Positions 39,089-55,091 of a stretch of 64,000 nucleotides of DNA are shown here, piece by piece (the stretch's first letter is position 1; each line of letters opens with the position of its first letter). The notes under the pieces are model-generated. The model searched no databases, was not told the DNA's origin, and was given only the letters and a program-made list of their open reading frames with translations. A program made the position numbers and the translations under genes. The stretch is from assembly GCF_007995095.1 (NCBI RefSeq), contig NZ_VOPY01000001.1, positions 1,203,001-1,267,000 on the forward strand, given 5' to 3'. Origin of the DNA: Flavisphingopyxis soli. Lineage in GTDB: Bacteria; Pseudomonadota; Alphaproteobacteria; Sphingomonadales; Sphingomonadaceae.

Positions 39089-39340
39089 TCAGGCGTGCCG
39101 ACGAGCGATAAAGTTGGTCCGCTTGACCTCGCCCTTGATGACGTTGCGGCCGAATGCCTTATGCATCACGGTGGCGTCTTCCATGTTGTTGAGAACGACG
39201 CGTGTGCCGCCGCCGGGCAGGGGTTCGATCGCGCTGATCGCGATGTCCTTGCGGTCGCATTTGGTGATGACCTGGTCTTCCTGGAGGCGCACGTTGATCG
39301 CACGGGTCACGGGAATTTCTGCGTCACTATCAAGAATCAT
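39089..39340 (-). CDS. Small conserved-looking protein of unknown function
   Basis: 83 residues from the ATG at 39340, preceded by CCGGAGCCC (ribosome-site-like) about seven bases upstream. The sequence MILDSDAEIPVTRAINVRL continues as a compact, mixed alpha/beta protein with a basic C-terminus (VIKGEVKRTNFIARRHA). No membrane segment, no recognised motif. An open frame extends 31 codons upstream, but that part overlaps the region before the repeat and has no clear start. Function unknown. Confidence 0.65.
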   Translation of the reverse strand: MILDSDAEIPVTRAINVRLQEDQVITKCDRKDIAISAIEPLPGGGTRVVLNNMEDATVMHKAFGRNVIKGEVKRTNFIARRHA

Positions 39341-39471: not shown

Positions 39472-39763
39472 CGCGGCGAGCCAGAAGCTCGAAAAATTCG
39501 CGATACGTCCCCGCCGAAGATCGCTCCGCAGCGCAGCGGGAGAGACGTCGCGAGCGCGGGCGCGATGCGAGCGGAGGAAGCGGCGGAAGAGGCGACAAGT
39601 TCATGGGGTTCACACCGTCCAGGGACGGGTTCACACTGTGACCCTGGCGCGTGCCCGAAGAATGGGGCGCCGCGCCATCGCGACGGCAGGCCGGGTCGAT
39701 CTGGCAGGTCGGGTACATGAGTCGACCATGCGCCATTGTATAAATTGTAGGAAAGCGGTTTTT
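39472..39763. repeat. Copy 1 of a 290-bp dispersed repeat
   Basis: Aligns over its whole length with 50136-50426 in the same orientation, with blocks of near-identity at the left end, in the core and at the right end (GTAGGAAAGCGGTTTTTT). The core contains two TTCACAC sites exactly 21 bp apart (39608 and 39629) and a CCAGGG...CCCTGG inverted repeat. On the minus strand a short frame is conserved with the other copy for about 60 codons, then diverges. It marks the left edge of an A+T-richer segment. I do not recognise the family. Confidence 0.85.
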
Positions 39764-40042
39764 TAAAAAGGATGCTTATTCTATTCACGTAATATGGCGT
39801 TCGTACAAGCCGATGACTGTTTAGCGCCCTACTTCCGTCATAGCCGGTGCCGTGAAATATCCCTGAGAGCGGACCGACTGCTTGGCTGGACAATTTGTGG
39901 GCCGCGATGTCAGATTATGGGTGGTTAGCTCCCTCGCGGCTATTGGTTAGGAAAGCCCCAAAAGCAGACTTTCAAGCTCGTCAGACTCCCGCTAATTTGA
40001 CGCGGAGTAACGGTCCGCATCGCTGATGTAGCTGCGCAGTTT
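39764..40042. other. A+T-richer stretch without a gene
   Basis: 279 bases between repeat copy 1 and the end of the M23-type gene. Base composition is clearly less GC-rich than the window average. I see no reading frame worth calling, no tRNA and no clear terminator. It looks like degraded or recently acquired DNA. Confidence 0.4.
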
Positions 40043-41218
40043 TCAGTTCACGGATTTGCCATCAAAGCTAATGACCGCGTTTTCTATAGGTAACTCTTCG
40101 CGCCGCCGATTCTCCGAACTGGCAGGGCGCTCGTCCCAGCCGGCTGTGCTCTCAAGAACTTCCAGCGATGGCACGTGCCCTTCAACGTCGAAGTTCTCGA
40201 ACGCATAGGCAACTCCCTCCGCTCCAAGTGCGGACGCACCATCGGCAACATGGATGTGAAGGTGTGGGGCGTCCGATTGACCTGAGTTCCCGACCTTCGC
40301 GATAACCTGCCCCTTATGGATTTGCTGACCTTTTTGAACGACTATGCTGCCGGGCAACAAATGGCCGTAAAACACATATGCGCCGCCGGGCAGTGCAAGT
40401 ACGACATTGTTGCCGCCGATCGTGTCTAGCGTGATAGGAACGGAAGGCGCAGCCCCAGGGCTATTGTCAGGGACGCCAACGTGCAAAGCTTCCACGCGGC
40501 CATCTGCGACGGCAAGGACATCAGTTCCGTAGCCCGCCCATGAAGCGTTCTGGCTGGGGTCACCACGAAAAGCATGACCCTTGGCATCTAGCTTTACAAA
40601 GTCGATTGCATAGCGCTGAGCGATACGCGCCTGGCCATTTACCACGACAACCGTGCGCCGGTGATCGTTTGTGTTCGATAATGCGTTCGCTGCGACCCAA
40701 CCGCTTCCTCGCAGTGGCGGTCCGAGCATGATCGGTGCGTTCCGGCTGACCCTCAAGGGCGGTGTGTCAAGGATTGTGCGGCTCGCTGGGACGTCAGGCT
40801 TGGAGGCTTTGATATGTACGCGATGAATCAATTCAGAAGGGATTGCGGCTTTTCTGGCCAGAATCGTGTCAAAGTAAACGAGGGCAAATGAGCCGGGAGC
40901 GATCTTCAGCTTCGCACTCCCCTCTGTTTCCTGCCCCGGTGTCCCAATCATGGTGACAAGCGCCGGGGCGTCGTAATGGTGAAGAACATTGCCCGCCTCG
41001 ATGACATCGATGCTCTCAAGCTCGACTCCACGAGGCGAAAAGTTGGAAAAGCGCATTTCGTAAAGAAGATGCACACCGTCTTCACCCTCGATTGGAACAG
41101 GCGGCGAGCTTGCCACTACGTCGAGCGGCACGACCGAGGGCTGTTCAGCCATGGCCGGACTGACCGCCATCAAGTTCGAGACAATGAAGATCGCGAAATA
41201 AAGCTTTTTCAAGGCCAA
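40043..41218 (-). CDS. Exported M23-type metallopeptidase-like protein
   Basis: 391 residues. Signal peptide LYFAIFIVSNLMAVSPAMA, so periplasmic or outer-membrane associated. An immunoglobulin-like N-terminal half (about residues 30-190) is followed by an M23 (LytM) domain: RYAIDFV, GTDVLAVADGRVEAL, FYGHLLPGSIVV, GQVIAKVGNSGQSDAPHLHIHV. The second and third His sites are present, but the first zinc His of the HxxxD motif is Arg, so activity is uncertain. Family members cleave peptidoglycan cross-links or act as activators of amidases. It lies in an A+T-richer segment directly after repeat copy 1; a paralog sits after repeat copy 2. Signs of transfer: composition and flanking repeat. Confidence 0.87.
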   Translation of the reverse strand: MALKKLYFAIFIVSNLMAVSPAMAEQPSVVPLDVVASSPPVPIEGEDGVHLLYEMRFSNFSPRGVELESIDVIEAGNVLHHYDAPALVTMIGTPGQETEGSAKLKIAPGSFALVYFDTILARKAAIPSELIHRVHIKASKPDVPASRTILDTPPLRVSRNAPIMLGPPLRGSGWVAANALSNTNDHRRTVVVVNGQARIAQRYAIDFVKLDAKGHAFRGDPSQNASWAGYGTDVLAVADGRVEALHVGVPDNSPGAAPSVPITLDTIGGNNVVLALPGGAYVFYGHLLPGSIVVQKGQQIHKGQVIAKVGNSGQSDAPHLHIHVADGASALGAEGVAYAFENFDVEGHVPSLEVLESTAGWDERPASSENRRREELPIENAVISFDGKSVN

Positions 41219-41683
41219 GATTCCTCATTGGAAATAAGGCAGATCATGCGAGACTGAGGCTTGGTTTTCAAGCAATCTCGTGCTGACAACAGTTCCGTCC
41301 CATCGGTGGCAATTCGGCTGTTCGCTCTGATTATGACCGCCCCTAACGGCAAAACGTCCTACGAGGCGCGTTATGAGCGTCCGCTAAAAATACTGCCGAA
41401 AAGGTCGACCAAACTTCCCTTTCTGGGTCGTTAGCAGAGTGTCCGGTTTTGGTGGGAGCTTCTGCCAGAGCTACTGTGATGTCGATACTAGCTCGCCCTC
41501 AGAGCCCCAACAGTATGGCCCATGACATGAGGTAGCAGACCATCGGCGTTTACCACGTCAGATTGCTTCAATTTCCCAGGGTGAGGGTTGAGGAAGCTCC
41601 CCATGGGGAATTGAAGGATGCCTAGAGGCGTTCTTGCCGTAAGCCGAGCCGCGCCCGCACCGTGCGTGCTTTGTGTCAGAATA
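41219..41683. other. Intergenic stretch with one inverted repeat, no gene
   Basis: 465 bases of lower GC content. The only structure I can support is an inverted repeat, CTTCAATTTCCC (41566-41577) with GGGGAATTGAAG (41605-41616), 11 of 12 pairs, loop 27 bases. The M23 gene promoter must lie at the left end. No reading frame has family resemblance. Confidence 0.45.
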
Positions 41684-43027
41684 TTAGCCGGTGGTTACGC
41701 TCGCGAGCAAATCTCGGGCGAGGGTGTTATCGGGGAACAAATCGGAGGTCAGTTGCAGAAGGTTCTTGGCTTCCTCGCTCTTTCCTTTCTGACTTAGGCC
41801 CATTCCGGCCATCAACATCGGCATCGGACCAATCTCCAGCTCGTTCGCCCTCGCCCACTTTCGGTACTCGCTGACGGTTGATGGAAGCTGGTGATCAAGC
41901 GCCGCGCGATAAAGAGTGACCTGCGGGTCTGCTCCTGGGAGCCGCGCCTCGGGGTCACCATTGGCATAGGCGAGCAGCGGCTTGAACAGAAACAGCGGTG
42001 CGTTCTCCAGGTTGGACAGCAGCACCAAGGTGTAGTTTGCACGTCCGTGCCTGAAACGGATTAGCTCAGCGCCGCCACCTTGCGTGGTCCCGCCCTTCGT
42101 CACATAGTGCCGGTCACCGGCAGCATAGAGTTCCCAAACCAGACCCACATCGGCGCCGAGATCCTCCCAGTGCGCGACGGGACGGGTGGCCAGCTGGTCA
42201 AGCACAGAACCGAACCAGAGGTGCCGCTCTATACCCCTTGAAAAAGCGAGCAGGTCGTCTGCGGTCGCGTACCAACCACCGTCCGGCCCGGGCCGGGGAT
42301 CCTGCAATGACGGATCAATGGTTCCATCAGGGCGCAGCACAAAGCCATCAGGCCGCTCCGGACTTGCCTCGTCGGGCTGCAAGGCGACTATCGTGTTCAT
42401 CCCCGCAGGTTGAAAGATCTCCTCACGAAAAAGCGTTTGCCAATCGCGATGTTGTGGGTCGGTTTTCTCGAGGATCCTTGCGAGCACCCAGAAGGCACTG
42501 TTCGAGTAGAAGAAACCAGTGCCGGGCGCGAATTCAACCTTTCCGCTGCGAACCAGGTTCAGGAAGTCGTCTGTGCTCCGCTGGGCAAGCGAGTAATCGG
42601 GATTGTCGAAATAATTGCCGTAACCTGAGGTGTGGGAGAGCAGTTGCCGGATGGTGATCTTGTCGGCGTTCGGCAAGCCGCTTTCGGGCCAGTGCATGGC
42701 AATCGTATCGTCGAGTGTTAACCGCCCGTTCTGAACCTGCTTTAAAATCAGAGCCATCGTGAAGAGCTTGCCGACCGACCCTATATTGTAGTGCTGCCTC
42801 GGCGTGGCAGGGGTGCCTTGCCGATCACGCGGCCCGTAGGCTTTGCGAAGCAGAACCTTGCCGTCCCTCGCCAAGAGCACAGTGCCGTAGAACCTGTCGT
42901 GACCCGCAGCCGCGGACAATGCTGCGTCAAGCCGCGTCGCCAGTGGATCGGGGGATTGAGCAGCAACGGGTACCGCGGGGCACAATGCAATCAGAAGGCT
43001 GGAGATTGCAGTTACAAGGTTTCTCAT
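41684..43027 (-). CDS. Exported serine hydrolase of the beta-lactamase/PBP family
   Basis: 447 residues with a signal peptide (LVTAISSLLIALCPAVPVAA). Ser-x2-Lys nucleophile in NIGSVGKLFTM, Tyr-x-Asn in FFYSNSAF and a KGG (in place of KTG) in YVTKGGTTQGGG, the triad of class C-type beta-lactamases, D-aminopeptidases and esterases. LLSHTSGYGNYF is typical. The last 60 residues (SQKGKSEEAKNLLQLTSDLFPDN) look like a TPR-type helix pair. The start at 43027 was chosen because the signal starts there; 52 upstream codons have no family likeness. Substrate unknown: an ester- or peptide-hydrolase rather than a resistance enzyme is most likely. Confidence 0.9.
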   Translation of the reverse strand: MRNLVTAISSLLIALCPAVPVAAQSPDPLATRLDAALSAAAGHDRFYGTVLLARDGKVLLRKAYGPRDRQGTPATPRQHYNIGSVGKLFTMALILKQVQNGRLTLDDTIAMHWPESGLPNADKITIRQLLSHTSGYGNYFDNPDYSLAQRSTDDFLNLVRSGKVEFAPGTGFFYSNSAFWVLARILEKTDPQHRDWQTLFREEIFQPAGMNTIVALQPDEASPERPDGFVLRPDGTIDPSLQDPRPGPDGGWYATADDLLAFSRGIERHLWFGSVLDQLATRPVAHWEDLGADVGLVWELYAAGDRHYVTKGGTTQGGGAELIRFRHGRANYTLVLLSNLENAPLFLFKPLLAYANGDPEARLPGADPQVTLYRAALDHQLPSTVSEYRKWARANELEIGPMPMLMAGMGLSQKGKSEEAKNLLQLTSDLFPDNTLARDLLASVTTG

Positions 43028-43234
43028 CCAAGTTAGACGCCACAAAATTCCGCGCGGGTCAAGTGGCCTCCGTACAGCGTCAACTATCATGATCTCCGCG
43101 CCGCGTTCCACCGCTCTGAAAATGCGCGGAAGGTGCGCTTTTTGGGAATCGGGGACGAGAAGCCGACGGGCCGCAGGTGGCACATTTGTGCCATTTCGGC
43201 TGGATACAATCCTTGGCTGGCATGCCTGGCCGCT

Positions 43235-43768
43235 TTAGCGGAGCGAGCTCACGATCGCCGCATCGAGCGCCTGCAGATAGCGCGAGCGATCGGCCTTGGC
43301 GAAAGGCGCTGGCCCGCCGAGCTGCTCTCCGCCGGCGCGCAGGTCGGCCATGATCGCGCGGGTGGCGATGGCGCCGCCGATCGAGTTGGCCGTGAAGGGC
43401 TTGCCGGTCGGGGCGAGGACGCTCGCGCCGGCCTTGAGGCAACGGTCGGCGAGGAGGATGTCGGCGGTGACGACGATGACCGCGGTCGCGCCGCGCGCAT
43501 CGCATGTTTCGGCGATCCAGTCGTCGGCGGCGTCGAAGCTGTCGCTGACGATGACGCGGTCGATCAGCGGGTGATCGGGAATGCGGATGTGCGCGTTGGC
43601 GACGATCGTCACGCGGACGGCGTGGCGCCAGGCGACCTTGTACGTCTCGTCCTTGACCGGGCAGGCATCGGCATCGATCAGGATGCGCAGGCGCGACGGC
43701 GAAGTGCCGCCGTCGCTGCCTGTTGCTTCGGATCCTGCCGGGCCGACGGGATAGTCTTGGGCGCTCAC
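43235..43768 (-). CDS. YaiI/YqxD family protein (DUF188, UPF0178)
   Basis: 177 residues. The diagnostic LIDADACPVKDETYKVAWRH opens the core, with VTIVANAHIRIP, VSDSFDAADDWIAE, DACPVKDE and GASVLAPTGKPFTANSIG following. The acidic residues suggest a PIN-like nuclease fold, but no activity is established for the family. It starts four bases inside the end of the DEAD-box helicase gene (ATGA overlap), so it is translated with it. The first 25 residues are a variable extension. Confidence 0.92.
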   Translation of the reverse strand: MSAQDYPVGPAGSEATGSDGGTSPSRLRILIDADACPVKDETYKVAWRHAVRVTIVANAHIRIPDHPLIDRVIVSDSFDAADDWIAETCDARGATAVIVVTADILLADRCLKAGASVLAPTGKPFTANSIGGAIATRAIMADLRAGGEQLGGPAPFAKADRSRYLQALDAAIVSSLR

Positions 43769-45837
43769 CGCGTTGGCTTGGGCCCGCTGGGCTTGCGGAA
43801 CATCTTGCCGCTGCCGTCGCTGCGCTTGCCGGCGAACTTGCCCCCGCTCTTGCCGCCCAGTTTCCCACCAGGCCCCTTGCCCTTGAACGGCCGCTTGGCA
43901 GCATAGTCACGCTGCGGCGCGGGCGGCTTGCCGTCGGCGCCGGTTACCGGGCGCATCGTCTTGCGCGCTGCGGTGGGGGCGTGATCGCTACGCTCGGTCG
44001 AGCGGGCGGGAGCGCGAACGGGCGCACGGTCAGGTGCGCGGTCAGGCGTACGGGCGGGGCGGTCGTCGCGTTCGGGCCGGGCGGCACGGGGCGCGGGACG
44101 GTGCTCGCCGCGCGGCGCCGCGGCGCGGTGATCGCTGCGCGGGGCGGACGGACGGCGATCCGAGCGCGGCGGGGCCGGACGCGCGCTGCGCCCACCGCCC
44201 TCGTTGTCGCGACCGCGATAGGCGGGACCGTCGGGCGAGGCCTCGATCAATATGCCGCTTTCCTCTTCGCCTTCGATATTGGCGGTCCGGGCGAGCGCGT
44301 CGGCGAACTTGGCGGCGGCAGCGCGCGGCACCTGGAAGTGCGTTTCATTGGCGCCGATGCGGATCGCACCGATCGAATCGCGCGTGATATGGCCGCGACG
44401 GCACAGGATCGGGAGGATCCAGCGCGGGTCGGCGTTCTGGCGACGGCCGATATCGAGGCGGAACCAGACGACGTCCTCGAAGCCGGGACGGTGCGTCTCG
44501 GCCTGTTTGGCGCGGTGCGCCTCGGGGGTGTTCTCGATCAGCTTTTCGGGTTGCGGCATCGCTGCGCGGTGTGCGTGGACGAGCGCTGCGGCGATATCTT
44601 CGGGGCTGCGTTCGGCGATCAGCCGCTGGGCGAGGACGCGATCCTCGTCGTCATATTCGACCGGCGCAAGGAGCGCCTCGATCAGGCGTTCGCGGTCCTG
44701 GATCTGGATCGCTTCGCGCGTCGGCGGATCGATCCATTCGGCGTTGATCTTGGCACCGCGCAGCATGCCCTCGACGCGCTTGCGGCGCGGATAGGGGACG
44801 ATGAGGACGGCAGTGCCCTTCTTGCCCGCGCGGCCGGTGCGGCCCGAGCGGTGCTGGAGGATTTCGGCGTCGCGCGGAATCTCGACATGGACGACGAGGC
44901 TGAGGCTGGGCAGATCGATGCCGCGCGAGGCGACATCGGTCGCGACGCAGACGCGCGCCCGGCGGTCGCGCAGCGCCTGCAGCGCCTGGTTGCGCTCGGA
45001 CTGCGAATGCTCGCCCGACAAAGCGACGACGGCAAAGCCGCGTTCCTGCAGCGTTGCATGAAGGCGGCGTACATTGTCGCGGGTGGCGCAGAACAGCATC
45101 GCGGTCTCGGCTTCGTGGAAGCGCAGCAGGTTGACGACGGCATGCTCGATCTCGGCGGGGGCGACGGTCATCGCCTGATAGGCGATATCGCCATGGCCGC
45201 GATCGTCGCCGACGGTCGAGATGCGCAGTGCGTCGCGCTGATAGCGCTTGGCGAGCGCGACGATCGGGCGCGGCATCGTTGCCGAGAAGAGCAAGGTGCG
45301 GCGGGCGTCGGGGGTAGCGTCCAGGATTTCCTCGAGGTCGTCGCGGAAGCCCATGTCGAGCATCTCGTCGGCCTCGTCGAGGATGATCGCCTTGAGGTTC
45401 GTAAGGACGAGCGCGCCGCGTTCGAGATGGTCGCGCAGGCGGCCCGGCGTGCCGACGACGATGTGAACGCCCTGGCTGAGCGCGCGGCGTTCCTTCGAGG
45501 CGTCCATCCCGCCGACACAGGTGGCGATACGCGCGCCGGCCTTGGCATAGAGCCAGGCGAGCTCGCGGCTGACCTGCAGGGCAAGTTCGCGCGTCGGGGC
45601 GATGGCGAGCGCGAGCGGCGCGCCGGCGGCGGGCATCGTGCCGGCGTCGTTGAGCAGGTCGGGCGCCATGGCGAGGCCGAAAGCGACGGTCTTGCCCGAA
45701 CCGGTCTGCGCCGAGACGATCAGGTCACGGCCCGACGCCTGGTCTTCGAGAACGGCGGCCTGGACCGCGGTGGGGGCTTCGTAGCCGCGCGCGGCGAGCG
45801 CTTCGGCAAGGAACGGGGGAAGGCTGGAAAAGGGCAT
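43765..45837 (-). CDS. DEAD-box RNA helicase with DbpA-like RNA-binding domain
   Basis: ATP-dependent RNA unwinding, probably in ribosome assembly or mRNA turnover. 690 residues. N-terminal Q motif near PFLAEALAARGYEAPTAVQ, Walker A AQTGSGKT, DEADEMLDMGF (motif II) and SAT, then motif VI HRSGRTGRAGKKG. Residues about 450-560 look like the DbpA RNA-recognition domain (VWFRLDIGRRQNADPRWILP). The last 130 residues are a low-complexity, Arg/Pro/Gly/Lys-rich tail, like that of DeaD or RhlE. Start 45837 matches the family N-terminus MPFSSLPPFLAEAL. A 630-base open frame upstream is an antisense shadow of the divergent gene. Confidence 0.93.
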   Translation of the reverse strand: MPFSSLPPFLAEALAARGYEAPTAVQAAVLEDQASGRDLIVSAQTGSGKTVAFGLAMAPDLLNDAGTMPAAGAPLALAIAPTRELALQVSRELAWLYAKAGARIATCVGGMDASKERRALSQGVHIVVGTPGRLRDHLERGALVLTNLKAIILDEADEMLDMGFRDDLEEILDATPDARRTLLFSATMPRPIVALAKRYQRDALRISTVGDDRGHGDIAYQAMTVAPAEIEHAVVNLLRFHEAETAMLFCATRDNVRRLHATLQERGFAVVALSGEHSQSERNQALQALRDRRARVCVATDVASRGIDLPSLSLVVHVEIPRDAEILQHRSGRTGRAGKKGTAVLIVPYPRRKRVEGMLRGAKINAEWIDPPTREAIQIQDRERLIEALLAPVEYDDEDRVLAQRLIAERSPEDIAAALVHAHRAAMPQPEKLIENTPEAHRAKQAETHRPGFEDVVWFRLDIGRRQNADPRWILPILCRRGHITRDSIGAIRIGANETHFQVPRAAAAKFADALARTANIEGEEESGILIEASPDGPAYRGRDNEGGGRSARPAPPRSDRRPSAPRSDHRAAAPRGEHRPAPRAARPERDDRPARTPDRAPDRAPVRAPARSTERSDHAPTAARKTMRPVTGADGKPPAPQRDYAAKRPFKGKGPGGKLGGKSGGKFAGKRSDGSGKMFRKPSGPKPTR

Positions 45838-46026
45838 AAATCTCTTTGGATCGAGGAGGCCGACAGGGCGGTGGACAGGGATAAGAGGGCGCGCGGGGCG
45901 GGCGCAGCCGCAGTGCGGCGGCGGCTCGTGCCGACGGTCTGGCTGCGCGCTTACACGAAAGCTGCGCGTTTGGCTTGCGTTGTTTTTGTGCGGTGCAAGG
46001 CGACGAACATGGCTAGGGTGTCCGGC

Positions 46027-47169
46027 ATGACATTTGAACAGTTCGATATCGACGGCTTCCTGCGCGACACGTGGCAGCAAAAGCCGCTGCTGATCCGCAA
46101 TCCGTGGGGGGAGTGGCGCAATCCGATCGAACCCGACGAACTGGCGGGACTGGCGTGCGAGCCGGGGGTCGAGGCGCGACTGGTGACGTGCGCCGGCGGC
46201 GCCCGCGCGGCCGAACACGGCCCGTTCGATCCCGGACGCTTCGCCGCGCTCGATCAGGATCGCTGGACTTTGCTCGTCCAGGCGGTCGATCATCATGTCC
46301 CCGAAGTGGCCGCGCTGATCGAGCCGTTCCGCTTCATCCCCAACTGGCGGATCGACGACGTGATGGTCAGCGTTGCCGGCGACGGCGGCGGGGTTGGGCC
46401 GCATTTCGACCAGTATGACGTCTTCCTGGTCCAGGGGCTGGGGCAGCGTCGCTGGCGCGTCGGGCAACGCTGCGACGAAGCGAGCGCGCTACAGCCACAC
46501 GACGACCTGAGGCTGCTTGCCGAGTTCGAGGCGAGCGACGAATGGCTGCTCGAGCCGGGCGATATCCTCTATGTGCCGCCGGGGATTGCGCACGACGGTA
46601 TTGCGGTCGGCGACGATTGCATGACCTATTCGATCGGTTTTCGCGCACCGTCGCGCGCCGAGCTGATCGGGCACTGGGCCGACGACCTGCTCGCCGCGAT
46701 GAGCGACGATGATCGCTATGGCGATGCGGGTTTAAGGCGTCAGGCCAATCCGGGCGAGATTGCACCCGAGGCGATCGACCGGTTGCACGCGATGATTACC
46801 GAAACGATGGGCGATCGCGCGGCCTTTGCGCGCTGGTTCGGCGGTTATGCCAGCACGCCCAAATATCCCGACATCGACTGGTCACCCGACGAGGCACTGT
46901 CGGCGGACGATGTCGGCGAACGGTTGCGAGCAGGTGCGGCGCTGATCCGCAATCCGGCGAGCCGTTTTGCCTTTGTGCGGCAAGAGGACTGCGCGCTGAT
47001 GCTGTACGTCGACGGCGAAGAGTATCGGTGTGCGGGCGATGTTGCTGAGCTCGCCGAGGCTCTCTGTGCCGGCGACACGATCGACGGAACTAAGTTGGTT
47101 CAGTCCGACGCGGCGTGCGCACTCGTCGCGACCTTGGTCAATTGCGGCAGCCTGGCGTTCGACGACTAG
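46027..47169 (+). CDS. Cupin-fold (JmjC-type) 2-oxoglutarate oxygenase, ribosomal oxygenase-like
   Basis: 380 residues resembling YcfD/RoxA, which hydroxylates Arg81 of ribosomal protein L16. The Fe(II) facial triad is visible: HFDQYD provides His and Asp, and a distal His follows in VPPGIAHDGIAVGDD. FIPNWRIDDVMVSVAGDGGGVGPHFDQYDVFLVQG is the signature block. The C-terminal 130 residues would form the dimerisation and winged-helix part. Start 46027 is preferred; an ATG six codons upstream (46009) is possible. On the plus strand, divergent from the helicase gene 190 bp away. Function inferred from the family, not tested. Confidence 0.88.
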   Translation: MTFEQFDIDGFLRDTWQQKPLLIRNPWGEWRNPIEPDELAGLACEPGVEARLVTCAGGARAAEHGPFDPGRFAALDQDRWTLLVQAVDHHVPEVAALIEPFRFIPNWRIDDVMVSVAGDGGGVGPHFDQYDVFLVQGLGQRRWRVGQRCDEASALQPHDDLRLLAEFEASDEWLLEPGDILYVPPGIAHDGIAVGDDCMTYSIGFRAPSRAELIGHWADDLLAAMSDDDRYGDAGLRRQANPGEIAPEAIDRLHAMITETMGDRAAFARWFGGYASTPKYPDIDWSPDEALSADDVGERLRAGAALIRNPASRFAFVRQEDCALMLYVDGEEYRCAGDVAELAEALCAGDTIDGTKLVQSDAACALVATLVNCGSLAFDD

Positions 47170-47176
47170 GCGTGCG

Positions 47177-47725
47177 TCAGGCCGCGACCTCGCGCCATTT
47201 GCCCGGTTCGATACCGTCGAGCGTCCATTCACCAACGCTCCAGCGGACGAGGCGCAGCGTCGGGTAGCCGACCGCGGCGGTCATGCGGCGGACCTGGCGG
47301 TTCTTGCCTTCACGGATGGTGAGCTTGATCCAGCTGTCGGGGATCGCCTGGCGGACGCGGATCGGGGGATCGCGCGGCCACAGGTCGGGCGCATCGACCC
47401 GCTCGGCATCGGCGGGGAGGGTGAGGCCGTCGTTGAGGCGGATACCCTTGCGCAGTTGCGACAGTGCGGCGGCATCGGGTTCGCCCTCGACCTGGACAAG
47501 GTAGGTCTTGGGCATCTTGAATTTCGGGCTGGCGATGTGGGTGATGAGCTTGCCGTCGTCGGCGAGGAGCAGCAGGCCTTCGCTATCCCGATCGAGCCGA
47601 CCCGCGGGGTAGACGCCGGGCACCGCAATGAAATCGGACAAGGTCGGGCGCGGCGAGGTGGTCCCGCGATCGGTGAACTGCGACAGGACCCCGTAGGGTT
47701 TGTTGAACAGGATCAGCCGCGCCAT
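47177..47725 (-). CDS. rluE: RsuA-family 23S rRNA pseudouridine synthase (RluE-like)
   Basis: 182 residues. [19 protein letters not shown] lacks an S4 domain, as RluE does; the catalytic Asp is in [35 protein letters not shown] and [22 protein letters not shown] are typical. In E. coli RluE modifies U2457 of 23S rRNA; the assignment is from the short length and the lack of S4. It converges with the oxygenase gene; the 7 bp between the two stops leave no space for a terminator. Confidence 0.92.
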
Positions 47726-47791
47726 CGCTTATTCGTCCTTGCCTATGTGCCTCGTCGCGACGCGGTAGGCGCGGGGGGCCGATAAGCCAAT

Positions 47792-47823
47792 CCCCTGCCG
47801 CCACGAGCGCGCGGCGGCAGGGG
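47792..47823 (-). terminator. Predicted terminator of katG
   Basis: Stem CCCCTGCCGCC (47792-47802) pairs with GGCGGCAGGGG (47813-47823), 11 bp with a 10-base loop, immediately after the katG stop. On the minus strand it is followed by ATTGGCTTATC, T-rich but not a run of T, so it may be a weak intrinsic terminator or an mRNA-end stabiliser. Confidence 0.65.
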
Positions 47824-47829
47824 TGATCG

Positions 47830-50019
<2,190 letters not shown>

Positions 50020-50135
50020 CTAAATGCCGACCGCTGGTGCGGCCTGTTGCGGTTGGCAAGGAGACTAGGCGCTTTGGCTGATCGAGGGAAACCGACATAA
50101 CCGCACGGAGAGAGTTGTAAAATCGATCAGGCCAC

Positions 50136-50426
50136 GCGGCGAGCCGGAAGTTGGGGTAGTTCGCGATACGCCCCTTTCGAAAATCGCCCCGCAGCGCAGC
50201 GCAAGGCGATCGCGGTCGACGGCGCGATGCGAGCGGTGAAAGCGGCGGAAGAGGCGACAAGTTCATGGGGTTCACACCGTCCAGGGACAGCTTCACACTG
50301 TGACCCTGGCGCGGGCGCGGAGAGTGGGGCGTCGCGCCACGGCGACGGCTGATCGGGCCGATCGGGCGAGTCGGGTTCATGCGACGACCATGCGCCATTG
50401 CGATAATTGTAGGAAAGCGGTTTTTT
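50136..50426. repeat. Copy 2 of a 290-bp dispersed repeat
   Basis: Direct repeat of 39472-39763. The two TTCACAC sites are at 50271 and 50292, again 21 bp apart, with CCAGGG...CCCTGG around the second. Right end is GTAGGAAAGCGGTTTTTT, as in copy 1. Overall identity is not total: the outer left part and the third quarter differ more than the core. It sits on the promoter side of katG and at the left edge of the second A+T-richer segment. Confidence 0.85.
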
Positions 50427-50580
50427 GGGAGAGGTTAGCGCGAAGACTGGCGTCGGGTTTGCGCCAAAACCGGGTCATCGCGGAGGCTGTTCCAAATCGC
50501 CGTAAGCGGATCGTCCGCTATTCTCGACGCTGGCTAGACCGTAATGTCGGGAATTGGGTGGAAAGCGGACTCTTGGTAGC
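50427..50580. other. Gene-free stretch right of repeat copy 2
   Basis: With the repeat and the katG leader this makes 573 bases without a coding gene (50008-50580). I see no RNA gene, no clear terminator and no reading frame with family likeness. Composition drops in GC compared with katG. Confidence 0.35.
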
Positions 50581-50991
50581 TCAACGAGAAACTTCGTCCA
50601 TCTCGTATCTAAGAAAGCTGGCATCACATTTTGTGCACGATGATGGAAGCGGCAAATTCACGCCGCCATAGTCCTTTCCCCAGAAACGGGTCCAGAACCT
50701 CTGGTCGATCCTTAGCTTTTCTTCGGCTTCATAGTCAGAAAACGCAGGCCAACCGCAGTTGTAGCATTTGGTGGTGAATACCCAGGCACTTGGTATAAAA
50801 ACCAATAGACCGATAGCTGAAGGCCAAAAATAGCCAAACGGCCAACCAACAAAGCATGCCAGAAAAAATAGGACGGATGCGGCTGCCGCTACCCACTGCC
50901 AGCGCCGCGCGTTTTGAAGCCTTCTTGGGACGCGGCAGTGCTTTTCTCGCAATCCGAAACTCCCTGTCGGTAGAATGACCGAACTCAGCAC
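50581..50991 (-). CDS. Small membrane protein with two CxxC pairs, unknown function
   Basis: 136 residues. Two adjacent hydrophobic segments (about residues 33-75: VAAAASVLFFLACFVGW, then SAIGLLVFIPSAWVF) are followed by CYNCGWPAFSDYE and, about 45 residues later, CTKCDASFLRYEM, which together could bind one zinc as a split ribbon on the cytoplasmic side. I do not recognise the family. Composition is atypical for the window. Start is not certain; the next ATG/GTG in frame would shorten it by some 35 residues. Lies between repeat copy 2 and the second M23 gene, divergent from it. Confidence 0.6.
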   Translation of the reverse strand: MLSSVILPTGSFGLREKHCRVPRRLQNARRWQWVAAAASVLFFLACFVGWPFGYFWPSAIGLLVFIPSAWVFTTKCYNCGWPAFSDYEAEEKLRIDQRFWTRFWGKDYGGVNLPLPSSCTKCDASFLRYEMDEVSR

Positions 50992-51171
50992 TTCTAACTT
51001 TGGAATGGAACGTCCGCAATTGGGTCGTTAGCCGCCTGACTGGTCCCGGCGATGCGACCGCACCTCGCCACCGACCGGAATGGGGTAAAAATAGCTGCGT
51101 CTATGGGGTACAAGTTGTGATCATACTGAGAGCGCCGGCGCGAATGCGGCGGTAATAACGGAGTGGACGAG

Positions 51172-52146
51172 ATGATCGCAATGGTATCGCTACTCCAGAT
51201 CGTCCTGCCTCTGGTGCTGCTTGTCTGGGTGGTCCTGCCTTCGGACAGCTTCGGAGGCTTCCTGTTGAAAACAAGCGGCGTCGGCGCCCTGTTGCTGGCT
51301 CTCGCCCTTGTTGCCCAATGGGCCGTGATCCCATGGTGGCTACCACGGTTCTATGGACTGCTATGGGTGGGCGCGATCGCCTATCATTTTATGCGTAGGC
51401 GGCTGCGGTATGACAAAGTGCTCCCATCTGGTCGGTGGCGCTGGACTGAAGCAGCCGTTGGCGCAGTCTTGCTTGCGGTGGGGCTATGGTTCGCGACCGC
51501 TGCGATAATGGGGCGCACGCCGCCGCCATCCAGGACTATCGATATCGCCAATCCGTTCGGACCCGGCAGCTATCTGGTCGGAAGCGGTGGCGGGCGCGAG
51601 ATCGTGAACGCGCACATGCGAACGCTCGACACGTCGGTGCCTCGCTACCGTTCGTGGCGGGGTCAGTCATATGCGCTCGATTTCTTCGGGGTCAACGCAC
51701 TCGGTACTCGTGCACGCGGCCTCAGCCCGAAGGATCCTGCTGCCTACGCAATTTTCGGTGCTGCTTTGCACGCCCCGTGTGCCGGTATGGTGGTGGCCGC
51801 CGAAAGCAGTCGTCCCGATTTTCAAGTTCCACAGCAGGACACGGTGAACCGTCTGGGCAACCACGTTATCCTAGACTGCGGGGATGCTCAGATCGTCTTT
51901 GCGCACATGCAGCAGGGCAGTATCGTGGTCGATCCGGGTGAGCGTGTTGCACTGGGCCAGAGGCTGGGATCAGTCGGCAATTCGGGCGCCAGCACCGAAC
52001 CACATCTGCACATTCATGTGCAGCGCGCCCCCGCATCCGATGCGCCGCCGATCTCTGGCGAACCATTGCCCCTGAGGATCGATGGCGAGTTCCTGGTCAG
52101 GGGCGACCGACTGAAAGGACGGGACTGGAAGAAGGAGATCCCATGA
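51172..52146 (+). CDS. Membrane-anchored M23-type metallopeptidase-like protein
   Basis: 324 residues from the ATG at 51172 (GGAG eight bases upstream; a GTG three codons earlier is possible). Four hydrophobic segments fill the first 120 residues, then a periplasmic M23 domain: QSYALDFFG, FAHMQQGSIVVDPGERVALGQRLGSVGNSGAS, EPHLHIHV. The first zinc His of HxxxD is Ser here. Same class as the exported protein at 40043-41218 (shared NSGxSxxPHLHIHV and GSIVV), but with a membrane anchor in place of the Ig-like half. Could act on peptidoglycan or be an inactive regulator. The 132-residue membrane protein follows after 70 bp. Confidence 0.85.
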   Translation: MIAMVSLLQIVLPLVLLVWVVLPSDSFGGFLLKTSGVGALLLALALVAQWAVIPWWLPRFYGLLWVGAIAYHFMRRRLRYDKVLPSGRWRWTEAAVGAVLLAVGLWFATAAIMGRTPPPSRTIDIANPFGPGSYLVGSGGGREIVNAHMRTLDTSVPRYRSWRGQSYALDFFGVNALGTRARGLSPKDPAAYAIFGAALHAPCAGMVVAAESSRPDFQVPQQDTVNRLGNHVILDCGDAQIVFAHMQQGSIVVDPGERVALGQRLGSVGNSGASTEPHLHIHVQRAPASDAPPISGEPLPLRIDGEFLVRGDRLKGRDWKKEIP

Positions 52147-52216
52147 ACGGCACCATCATTTGCGGCGGATATATAATGGCAGGGTATGACAAGCCGAAGC
52201 GTGCGGAACCTCACGC

Positions 52217-52615
52217 GTGAGATCGCCGATACTAGTCGCCGGTGGCACGTATTTCCTGATCGTTTTCGTTGCAGGCTTCCTAATGGGAATACTGCGGGTC
52301 TTGGTGGTTGTACCCCAGGTAGGGGAGGTTGCAGCGGTCGTCCTGGAAGTGCCGATCATGCTCGTAATCGCGTGGTTCGCCTGCGACTGGGTTCTCAAGA
52401 AAGTCCCCGTGCCGCGTAGGAATTTAGACAGGGTGGTCGTGGGCGCGTTTGCGCTCGGCCTGCTGCTCACAGCAGAAGCGGTGTTATCGATAGGTCTAAC
52501 GGGCATTTCCTTGCAGGAGCACTTCCGCAGTTACTCTCGGGCAGGTCCGCTCATAGGCCTCGCGGCTCAGCTCCTCTTCGCTTCTTTCCCACTTATCCGG
52601 GCGCAATCCTCCTAG
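52217..52615 (+). CDS. Small four-helix membrane protein, unknown function
   Basis: 132 residues from a GTG at 52217. Four hydrophobic segments: VAGGTYFLIVFVAGFLMGIL, VAAVVLEVPIMLVIAWFAC, VVGAFALGLLLTAEAVLSI and PLIGLAAQLLFASFPLI. It resembles a family of small sphingomonad membrane proteins (AGFxxGxxRVLxxVP) that I recall but cannot name. No recognised catalytic motif. No good ribosome site precedes the GTG, so translation may depend on the upstream M23 gene. It converges with the UvrD gene 61 bp away. Confidence 0.6.
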   Translation: MRSPILVAGGTYFLIVFVAGFLMGILRVLVVVPQVGEVAAVVLEVPIMLVIAWFACDWVLKKVPVPRRNLDRVVVGAFALGLLLTAEAVLSIGLTGISLQEHFRSYSRAGPLIGLAAQLLFASFPLIRAQSS

Positions 52616-52676
52616 CGGCATACATTTGTCGTCATACACCGAGTAGAAGGGCAGCTAACGGCCTTAGTTCAGCCTC

Positions 52677-55091
52677 TCACCCCACCTTTACAAAGCTATC
52701 CATCACCCGTTTCCGCCCGGCGTGTTCAAAGTCGATTTCGAGCTTGTTGCCTTCGATCTCGACGATGGCGCCGTAGCCGAATTTCTCGTGGAAGACGCGT
52801 TGGCCTAGCGCGACGTCGCTGCGGCCCTTGTTGCCGAGGCTGACGGCGCTGCCGCGGTTTTCCTTCGGCGCGTAGAGGCCGCCGGTGCGGGCGCGGTCGG
52901 GGCGGCCGGGGCGGCGGTCTGCGGCCGAGGTGAGGCCGGGGGTGAAGAGGGCGTTGCGTCCGGAACCGCCCCTCTCCGCTGCGCCTAATTCGCTGCGCTC
53001 ATAAGGCTCGCTGCCTCTCCCCTGAAGGGGAGAGGGTTTGTTGGTCGCGCGTTGCCAGCCGGGGCCTCGGCCGGTGCCGCTGCCGACATGCGCGAAGGGA
53101 TCGCCGGTGGCGCTCCAGTTGGCGCGCCACATCGACGGGCCGCCGCCCATCGTCGATTCCTCCTCGATATGGTCGGCGGGCAGCTCGCCGACGAAGCGGC
53201 TGGGGATGCTGCTGGTCCACTGGCCGTAGATGCGGCGGTTGGCGGCGTGGAGGATGGTGCACTGTTCGCGCGCGCGGGTGATCGCGACATAGGCGAGGCG
53301 GCGTTCCTCCTCGAGGCTGGCGTTGCCGCCTTCGTCGAGCGCGCGTTGCGAGGGGAAGACGCCCTCTTCCCAGCCGACGAGAAAGACGTGGTGGTATTCG
53401 AGCCCCTTGGCGGCGTGGATCGTCATGATCGTGACCTTGGCCGCGTCGTCGCGCGCGTCGTTGTCCATGACGAGCGAGACGTGTTCGAGGAATGCCTCGA
53501 GCGTCTCATACTCCTCCATCGCGCGGGCGAGTTCGGAGAGGTTTTCGAGCCGGCCCGCGGCTTCGGCGGTGCGATCGGCCTGGAGCATGGCGGTATAGCC
53601 GCTCTCGTCGAGGACGAGGCGCGTGAGTTCCGCATGGTTCAAATCGTTGGTGCGGTCGCGCCAGCGGGCGATGTCGGCGACGAAGCGGCCGAGCGACTTG
53701 CGTGCCTGGGGCGTCAGCTCGTCGCTGTCGAGCAGGCGCGCGGCGGCGTGGAGCAGCGAGATATTCTCGGCGCGGGCGTAGGCATGGATGCGCCCGACCG
53801 CCTTGTCGCCGAGGCCGCGCTTGGGCGTGTTGACGATGCGGTCGAAGGCGAGGTCGTCGGCGGGCTGGTTGATCAGCCGCAGGTACGCGATCGCGTCGCG
53901 GATCTCGGCGCGTTCATAGAAGCGGAAGCCGCCGACGATGCGATAGGGCAGGCCGATCTGGATGAAGCGGTCCTCGAACTCGCGCGTCTGGAACTGGGCG
54001 CGCACGAGGATCGCGACGGTGTCGAGGCTGACGGGGGCGTTGCCTTTCGTGCCGCGCTGGAGGTCCTCGATCAGCTCGCCGACGCGGCGCGCTTCCTCGG
54101 GCCCGTCCCAGACGCCCATGACGCGGACCTTCTCGCCCGCGTCGAGCTCGGTCCACAGCGTCTTGCCGAGGCGGCCGCCATTGTGCGCGATGACGCCCGA
54201 GGCGGCGCCGAGGATGTGCGGGGTGCTGCGATAGTTCTGTTCGAGCTTGACGATCTTGGCGCCGGGAAAGTCGCGTTCGAAGCGCAGGATATTTTCGACC
54301 TGCGCGCCGCGCCACGAATAGATCGACTGATCGTCGTCGCCGACACAGGCGATATTGCGGTGCTTTTGCGCGAGCAGGCGCAGCCAAAGATACTGGACCG
54401 AGTTGGTGTCCTGGTACTCGTCGACGAGGATGTACTTGAACTTCGCCTGGTAGGATTCGAGCACCTCGCGGTGCGTCTTCAAAATGACGAGTGGGTGGAG
54501 CAGCAGGTCGCCGAAATCGCACGCGTTGATCGTTTTGAGGCGTGCCTGGTAAGCGGCGTAGAGCTGCTGGCCCTTGCCGTCGGCGTACGCTTCGCTGTCG
54601 CCCGCGCCGAGTTCGGTCGGAGTAAGCCCCGCGTTTTTCCAGCGGTCGATGAGACCGGCGAGGAGGCGCGCGGGATAGCGTTTCTCGTCGATTTCCTCGG
54701 CGGCGATGAGCTGTTTCAGGAGGCGCAGCTGGTCGTCGGTGTCGATGATCGTGAAGTTCGACTGCAGCCCGACAAGCTCTGCATGACGGCGCAGCATCTT
54801 GGCACCGATCGAGTGGAAGGTGCCGAGCCACGGCATCCCCTCGACCGCGTCGCCGACCATCCGGCCGACGCGTTCGCGCATTTCGCGCGCGGCCTTGTTG
54901 GTGAAGGTGACCGAGAGGATCTCGCTCGGCCAGGCGAGGCGGCTGAACAGGATATGAGCCAGCCGCGCGGTGAGCGCGGCGGTCTTGCCCGTGCCCGCGC
55001 CGGCGAGGACGAGGACGGGGCCTTCGGTCGTCGTCACTGCCTCGCGTTGCGGCGCGTTGAGCGCGGCGAGATAGGGCGGGTCGGCGGGCAT
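52677..55091 (-). CDS. uvrD: UvrD/PcrA-type DNA helicase
   Basis: 804 residues. 3'-5' helicase for nucleotide excision and mismatch repair and for replication-fork clearance. Motifs: Walker A VLVLAGAGTGKTAALTARLA, TFTNKAAREMRERV, GTFHSIGAKMLRRH, DEYQDTNSVQYLW, GDDDQSIYSWRGA, QNYRSTPHIL, TIHAAKGLEYHHVF. The C-terminal 85 residues (ALGQRVFHEKFGYGAIVEIEGN) form the Tudor-like domain seen in PcrA. The start at 55091 matches family N-termini; the frame is open further upstream. Odd: residues about 686-708 are translated from a palindromic repeat (52968-53036), within the linker before the C-terminal domain. Confidence 0.95.
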   Translation of the reverse strand: MPADPPYLAALNAPQREAVTTTEGPVLVLAGAGTGKTAALTARLAHILFSRLAWPSEILSVTFTNKAAREMRERVGRMVGDAVEGMPWLGTFHSIGAKMLRRHAELVGLQSNFTIIDTDDQLRLLKQLIAAEEIDEKRYPARLLAGLIDRWKNAGLTPTELGAGDSEAYADGKGQQLYAAYQARLKTINACDFGDLLLHPLVILKTHREVLESYQAKFKYILVDEYQDTNSVQYLWLRLLAQKHRNIACVGDDDQSIYSWRGAQVENILRFERDFPGAKIVKLEQNYRSTPHILGAASGVIAHNGGRLGKTLWTELDAGEKVRVMGVWDGPEEARRVGELIEDLQRGTKGNAPVSLDTVAILVRAQFQTREFEDRFIQIGLPYRIVGGFRFYERAEIRDAIAYLRLINQPADDLAFDRIVNTPKRGLGDKAVGRIHAYARAENISLLHAAARLLDSDELTPQARKSLGRFVADIARWRDRTNDLNHAELTRLVLDESGYTAMLQADRTAEAAGRLENLSELARAMEEYETLEAFLEHVSLVMDNDARDDAAKVTIMTIHAAKGLEYHHVFLVGWEEGVFPSQRALDEGGNASLEEERRLAYVAITRAREQCTILHAANRRIYGQWTSSIPSRFVGELPADHIEEESTMGGGPSMWRANWSATGDPFAHVGSGTGRGPGWQRATNKPSPLQGRGSEPYERSELGAAERGGSGRNALFTPGLTSAADRRPGRPDRARTGGLYAPKENRGSAVSLGNKGRSDVALGQRVFHEKFGYGAIVEIEGNKLEIDFEHAGRKRVMDSFVKVG
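52968..53036. repeat. Palindromic element translated within uvrD
   Basis: On the minus strand it reads CCCTCTCCCCTTCAGGGGAG and ends GCAGCGGAGAGGGG, the same ends as the element at 63567-63632. It contributes about 23 in-frame residues (PSPLQGRGSEPYERSELGAA..) to the protein and lies in a low-complexity linker, so it is probably tolerated. Related elements are common in alphaproteobacterial intergenic DNA. Confidence 0.7.

Follow-up and report, generated by a model that had tools for sequence, protein, structure and literature searches.

Two studies report that one set of regulators, GafA in Rhodobacter and GafY, GafZ and IHF in Caulobacter, serves gene transfer agent (GTA) genes that are scattered over the genome, with a putative GafZ element located between -10 and -35 (PMC11150451, PMC6363796). 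A Caulobacter study reports no holin or endolysin homologues (PMC9632790), and gp1 of the Rhodobacter capsulatus GTA (RcGTA) is proposed to lack an N-terminal DNA-binding domain (PMC6854486). Here we describe a pair of repeats, copies A and B, in a 64,000-nucleotide stretch of the Flavisphingopyxis soli genome (Sphingomonadaceae; contig NZ_VOPY01000001.1, positions 1,203,001 to 1,267,000), hereafter called the window. Both copies contain a promoter-like box of a class that in Sphingomonadaceae often precedes terminase-small-subunit-like genes, GTA endolysin and holin genes and, in some satellite-like elements, the capsid gene. In literature searches on GTA regulators, satellites and sphingomonad promoters we found no description of this box, nor of the way in which GTA-type lysis and packaging genes are controlled in Sphingomonadaceae. 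On balance we favour the reading that the two repeats are diverged paralogous modules, each a promoter with its leader, from a set of phage-derived genes found throughout the family, and they look like switches for the genes to their left rather than like the edges of a mobile island.

The box class resembles the Gaf regulons in that one regulator set would govern scattered GTA genes, but it differs in that the published GafY element, ACTATG, is not the box of Sphingomonadaceae and the regulator of the latter is putative; GafY-type regulation was rejected on account of this differing element. The gene family behind the boxes resembles RcGTA gp1 in matching the terminase small subunit PHROG 4044, whereas it carries a helix-turn-helix-like stretch, as read from the sequence, and occurs in multiple copies.

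A first-pass annotation, made from the letters of the sequence without database searches, had described 39472-39763 and 50136-50426 as aligning end to end in the same orientation. This was confirmed with 84% identity over 292 bp (E 2.9e-84), and the full-length repeat occurs twice in the 2.59-Mb genome among the best 40 of 91 candidates scored. The ungapped part of the alignment comprises 217 nt with 29 differences. Copies A and B are identical in a 22-nt box stretch at their right end (AAAAAACCGCTTTCCTACAATT, the first 22 nt read leftward) and, after four differing sites, in a 16-nt block, and they differ twice in a 74-nt block, so that only 2 of the 29 differences fall within these three stretches (112 of the 217 nt). 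The exact pattern [CT]T[GT]TCCTAC[AT] is present on the gene strand of both copies. Read in frame, the two copies differ by 4 synonymous versus 21 non-synonymous changes and so give no sign of being constrained as coding sequence, by which a protein-coding repeat was rejected. Because of this block pattern and the missing coding constraint, each copy is read as a box plus non-coding leader facing away from the A+T-rich segment on its right.

The same pattern bears on the possibility that both copies are decayed 5' remains, a promoter and leader left behind after loss of a terminase-like gene and now functionless. An ATG follows the box in both copies, yet no terminase-like frame lies behind it, and A and B are free to differ outside box and core. 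In the single same-genus genome compared, a metagenome-assembled genome (MAG) that we refer to as the sister, a box is kept before a helicase near UvrD, together with a leader made up of GTCAC repeats (helicase, UvrD, katG and glyS are names from reading of the sequence, without family search). The near identity of the box, 16-nt and 74-nt stretches argues against decay, which we consider unlikely, albeit worth keeping in mind.

The association of the box with phage-derived genes was followed across the family. A profile of four terminase-like domains, all four of which match PHROG 4044, found matches in 85 of 99 Sphingomonadaceae genomes, with up to 9 places per genome. The definition [CT]T[GT]TCCTAC[AT] was chosen after inspection of 30 loci; among the 28 discovery loci outside the genus, 23 carry the exact box upstream and 25 a box with at most one mismatch. 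Twenty held-out loci from 20 further genomes, which had lower ranks among the profile matches and share descent with the discovery loci, carry the exact box upstream in 12 cases and a box with at most one mismatch in 15. Downstream controls of the same length gave 0/20 exact boxes and 3/20 with one mismatch, and the reverse strand gave 0/20 in either case. Within the genus, all terminase-like genes examined (3 of 4 matches in F. soli, 2 of 3 in the sister) are preceded by the box. NCBIfam gave no match for the terminase-like proteins, and no relative of the 538-residue terminase-like protein was found in phage records.

A GTA holin is present in 84 of 109 genomes. In 30 listed holin loci, two of them from the genus of F. 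soli, the 1400 nt upstream of the gene contain the exact box on the gene strand in 24 cases and a box with at most one mismatch in 27, as compared to 0/30 and 2/30 on the reverse strand; downstream we found one exact box, at a clipped locus where the holin position had been assigned wrongly, and 2/30 with at most one mismatch. Counts over whole loci confirm the specificity of the box, with 42 exact boxes in 160 kb of terminase-like loci and 25 in 98.6 kb of holin loci versus none in 117.7 kb of satellite relatives. The box has a defined sequence, position and orientation and is specific for its genes, an association that is well supported, while the function of copies A and B is putative. In 17 of the 23 holin boxes, TKTCCT is followed at a distance of about 16-18 bp by a TTA, from which we infer that in most holin promoters the box takes the -35 position and a TTA-containing element the -10 position. 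With the box placed where a -35 element would lie, a dedicated regulator is probably acting at it and switching these genes together. The motif AACC-N5-GGTT follows 14 of 23 holin boxes versus 5 of the 42 exact boxes of terminase-like loci. Two further box sites were noted, namely a box-like CGCTTTCCTACATATT before a DUF6456 gene in another genus (L070), and a box with TTATGTTC, similar to the endolysin promoter of the genus, before an apparent lytic transglycosylase that was named without family search (L069).

Two pattern scans of IMG/VR returned 12 contigs, nine of them left unassigned; the other three are GC-rich elements of 10-12 kb with the box directly before the capsid gene. These satellite-like elements (L188, L197 and L199) share the box of the host GTA lysis genes. 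The 12-kb element L188 encodes a primase, large terminase, major head protein, portal, head closure protein and integrase. In this gene content L188, with its box before the capsid gene, resembles capsid-forming phage satellites (cf-PICIs); the case described here differs in that the window showed no element of this type and in that the box accompanies only close relatives. A capsid search gave 17 loci. Six of them have a capsid with at least 75% identity, and in five of these six the box is located 146-182 bp upstream, three of the five having been found through the box itself; none of the 11 more distant loci has it. A short, specific box present throughout the family, linking GTA lysis genes and orphan terminase-like genes with some satellite capsid genes, would offer a handle on the regulator and the whole regulon, and it suggests that the promoter logic of domesticated phage genes may also apply to satellites.

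In F. soli, CGCTTTCCTACA occurs six times, each time upstream of a leader core of about 50 bp and in consistent orientation. Eight copies of this core were found in F. soli and four in the sister, in leaders, between genes and in a coding region. Eleven of the 12 cores have the box upstream in the same orientation, one box with one mismatch, two at about 1.07 kb and two at 0.59 kb from the core; in each species one core falls within coding sequence, with its box some 1.07 kb away. Among the products of genes behind the boxes are a GH108 endolysin with GTA_holin_3TM (E 9.1e-32), an aldehyde dehydrogenase, a fatty-acid desaturase, pyruvate phosphate dikinase (ppdK) and terminase-like proteins, and PF11351 (holin) and PF05838 (endolysin) were detected in neighbouring F. 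soli genes.

None of the remaining 57 genomes showed the core in searches of which one scored at most 12 candidates per genome, nor was it found in IMG/VR; a scan of 84,980 species gave the sister and two unrelated matches, which we read as chance. The core was therefore rejected as a family-wide element. This restricted occurrence, together with 8 and 4 copies spread over leaders, intergenic sites and a coding region, would also fit a genus-specific interspersed palindromic repeat (similar to repetitive extragenic palindromes, REPs, or miniature inverted-repeat transposable elements, MITEs) that spread without a regulatory role. Its consistent orientation behind the box in 11 of 12 cases and the family-wide, gene-linked nature of the box render such a repeat improbable. 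The conserved non-coding leader with its inverted repeats likewise raises the question of a structured regulatory RNA, either riboswitch or small RNA. Four folded cores gave z-scores of 0.23, -1.58, -0.89 and -1.65 with differing structures, and no Rfam family reached threshold in the window; in view of these weak, inconsistent folds and the missing Rfam match, an RNA element was rejected as very improbable.

We read the core with its array of GTCAC/GTGAAC half-sites as a putative binding site at the DNA level, either for the putative regulator or for the terminase-like proteins. In the two species, 12 of 15 boxes are followed within 1.6 kb by a cluster of at least three half-sites of this type per 120 bp, compared to 8 of 154 overlapping window tiles; this definition was made after the core had been seen, and the core accounts for most of the clusters. 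The count for copy B is only 2, while a count of 3 is attained at two of the four boxes that lack a core. The small terminase of a phage recognises a pac site that is located within its own gene or close to it. By analogy, terminase-like proteins might bind the half-site arrays behind their own promoters, so that lysis genes, orphan terminase-like proteins and satellite capsids would form one regulon aiming packaging at chosen chromosomal sites, two of them being the window repeats near katG; we regard this extension as a long shot.

Three observations concern the coding context of these arrays. The core is translated in frame within a terminase-like protein in both species (L039:2940-4556 and L047:1859-3574). 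In leaders L041 and L046, another frame of the core forms a short open reading frame (ORF; ...VNPSLDGV... and ...VNLPQDGV..., respectively) whose stop overlaps the next start. At L213, a divergent array of GTCACGC/GCGTGAA half-sites starts at the stop codon of the terminase-like gene.

To place copies A and B within the class, both strands of the window were scanned with a matrix built from 23 holin boxes of other genera, which had been picked by the exact box. Copy B ranked first with 14.7 bits and copy A second with 6.5 bits, followed by matches of 4.9 and 4.7. A number of findings nevertheless weigh against our assignment of the repeats to this set of genes. As 21 of the 23 training sites score 28.9-45.4 and the other two 7.2 and 10.6, both copies lie far below most training sites, and copy A barely exceeds the next window match. 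Both have weak -10 candidates and lack AACC-N5-GGTT in the spacer, a motif that is also infrequent at terminase-like loci, so that the class relies on the 10-nt box by itself. The next genes are an 83-codon gene (A) and katG (B), neither of them a phage-derived gene as found behind other boxes in F. soli, and no exact box was found at either gene in the sister, so that the association of the module with these two genes lacks conservation. Beyond the two copies, no box was found for one of the eight F. soli cores (L003), and in both species the glyS-ppdK box falls within the coding part of glyS, where it may have arisen by chance. Pfam gave no match above cut-off for the terminase-like proteins, with one full-length protein sub-threshold and two others without any match. 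One exact pattern over 119 genomes matched nine times outside the genus, six of these in one conserved coding frame, on account of which the gene-anchored tests were adopted. Finally, a working GTA in F. soli is doubtful, since GTA_TIM (PF13547), the only structural-cluster protein searched, was not found in this one genome while the Caulobacter control was positive; the GTA lysis genes are perhaps retained without a standard GTA. By box, orientation and company, copies A and B belong to the class; they have diverged, however, and could be weak or dead. Their place before katG and the 83-codon gene probably goes back to duplication and to local rearrangement next to variable A+T-rich DNA.

Table 1. 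Positions of the two repeats, their parts and the adjoining features in the window.
Feature	Position	Strand	Remark
Repeat copy A	39472..39764	-	promoter-like box and non-coding leader, read leftward
Box A, CTTTCCTACA	39746..39755	-	inside AAAAAACCGCTTTCCTACAATT, identical in both copies; matrix rank 2 in the window
Core in leader A	39592..39646	-	GTCAC/GTGAAC half-sites; genus-specific
83-codon gene downstream of copy A	39089..39340	-	conserved; sister homologue without the module
A+T-rich segment A	39765..43230		not found in the sister
M23 gene in segment A	40043-41218		Pfam
Beta-lactamase-fold gene in segment A	41684-43183		Pfam
Repeat copy B	50135..50426	-	promoter-like box and leader, read leftward to katG
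Box B, CTTTCCTACA	50408..50417	-	inside AAAAAACCGCTTTCCTACAATT; matrix rank 1 in the window (14.7 bits)
Core in leader B	50254..50308	-	from copy search
katG, next gene downstream of copy B	47830..50007	-	name from sequence reading
A+T-rich segment B	50427..52676		sister with unrelated A+T-rich genes at this place
M23 gene in segment B	51163-52146		Pfam

The DNA to the right of the copies had led the first-pass annotation to propose that the repeat is a preferred insertion point or borders a type of small mobile island carrying wall-active proteins. Its observations on this DNA hold. Segments A and B have a GC content of 57.0% and 58.0% versus 63.5% for the window, much of whose first 13 kb (1-13 kb) is similarly low, and each contains a Pfam-supported M23 gene. 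M23 peptidases carry an H-x3-D motif, and in both proteins its first histidine is replaced (RYAID and SYALD, as read in the sequences) while PHLHIHV is kept. The two M23 proteins share 38% identity over 146 residues, are encoded on opposite strands, and have plasmid relatives (51 and 47 records) that are all less than 60% identical.

Comparison with the sister lends the island proposal its part of truth, as the DNA beyond the box differs between the species. Segment A is absent there together with copy A, the bordering aligned blocks being 347 bp apart compared to 4.0 kb in F. soli, and katG is found at another location without the exact box. Next to UvrD, a box is directly adjoined by an A+T-rich segment in either species, and the genes of the two segments are unrelated: the cargo is the M23 gene in F. 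soli, and in the sister, whose segment has 54.8% GC, another protein, presumably of SEC-C type. With one same-genus MAG, gain and loss of the segments cannot be told apart. On the other side, Pfam searches with the five larger ORFs from segments A and B revealed neither integrase nor transposase, their right borders have no sequence in common, and the M23 proteins are only distant relatives. Other box or core places are followed by ordinary genes, the next gene being ppdK, an aldehyde dehydrogenase, a desaturase or the endolysin-holin pair, and a crude scan for an M23-like HxH motif around eight of them (3-7 kb each) gave one match in another context and none at seven. This agrees in part with what the first-pass annotation had named as refuting its proposal, namely copies elsewhere next to ordinary genes and without link to M23 genes. 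A generic island border is not supported, as the repeat ends at a promoter-like box reading away from the segments, and we hold the proposal of an island border or insertion point to be quite improbable.

Two minor observations concern other repeated sequences. Among 15 same-genome pairs from other genera, a core-like sequence common to the terminase-like and the holin locus was rejected as a general feature. The strongest same-genome match, in G095 (L111 and L183), is a 26-bp identical sequence with tandem AAGTTGAGG, located near the terminase-like gene and near the holin. In the window, a stretch of about 90 bp within the UvrD-like gene (52951-53044) has matches at seven or more other sites of the sister genome and represents another interspersed repeat.

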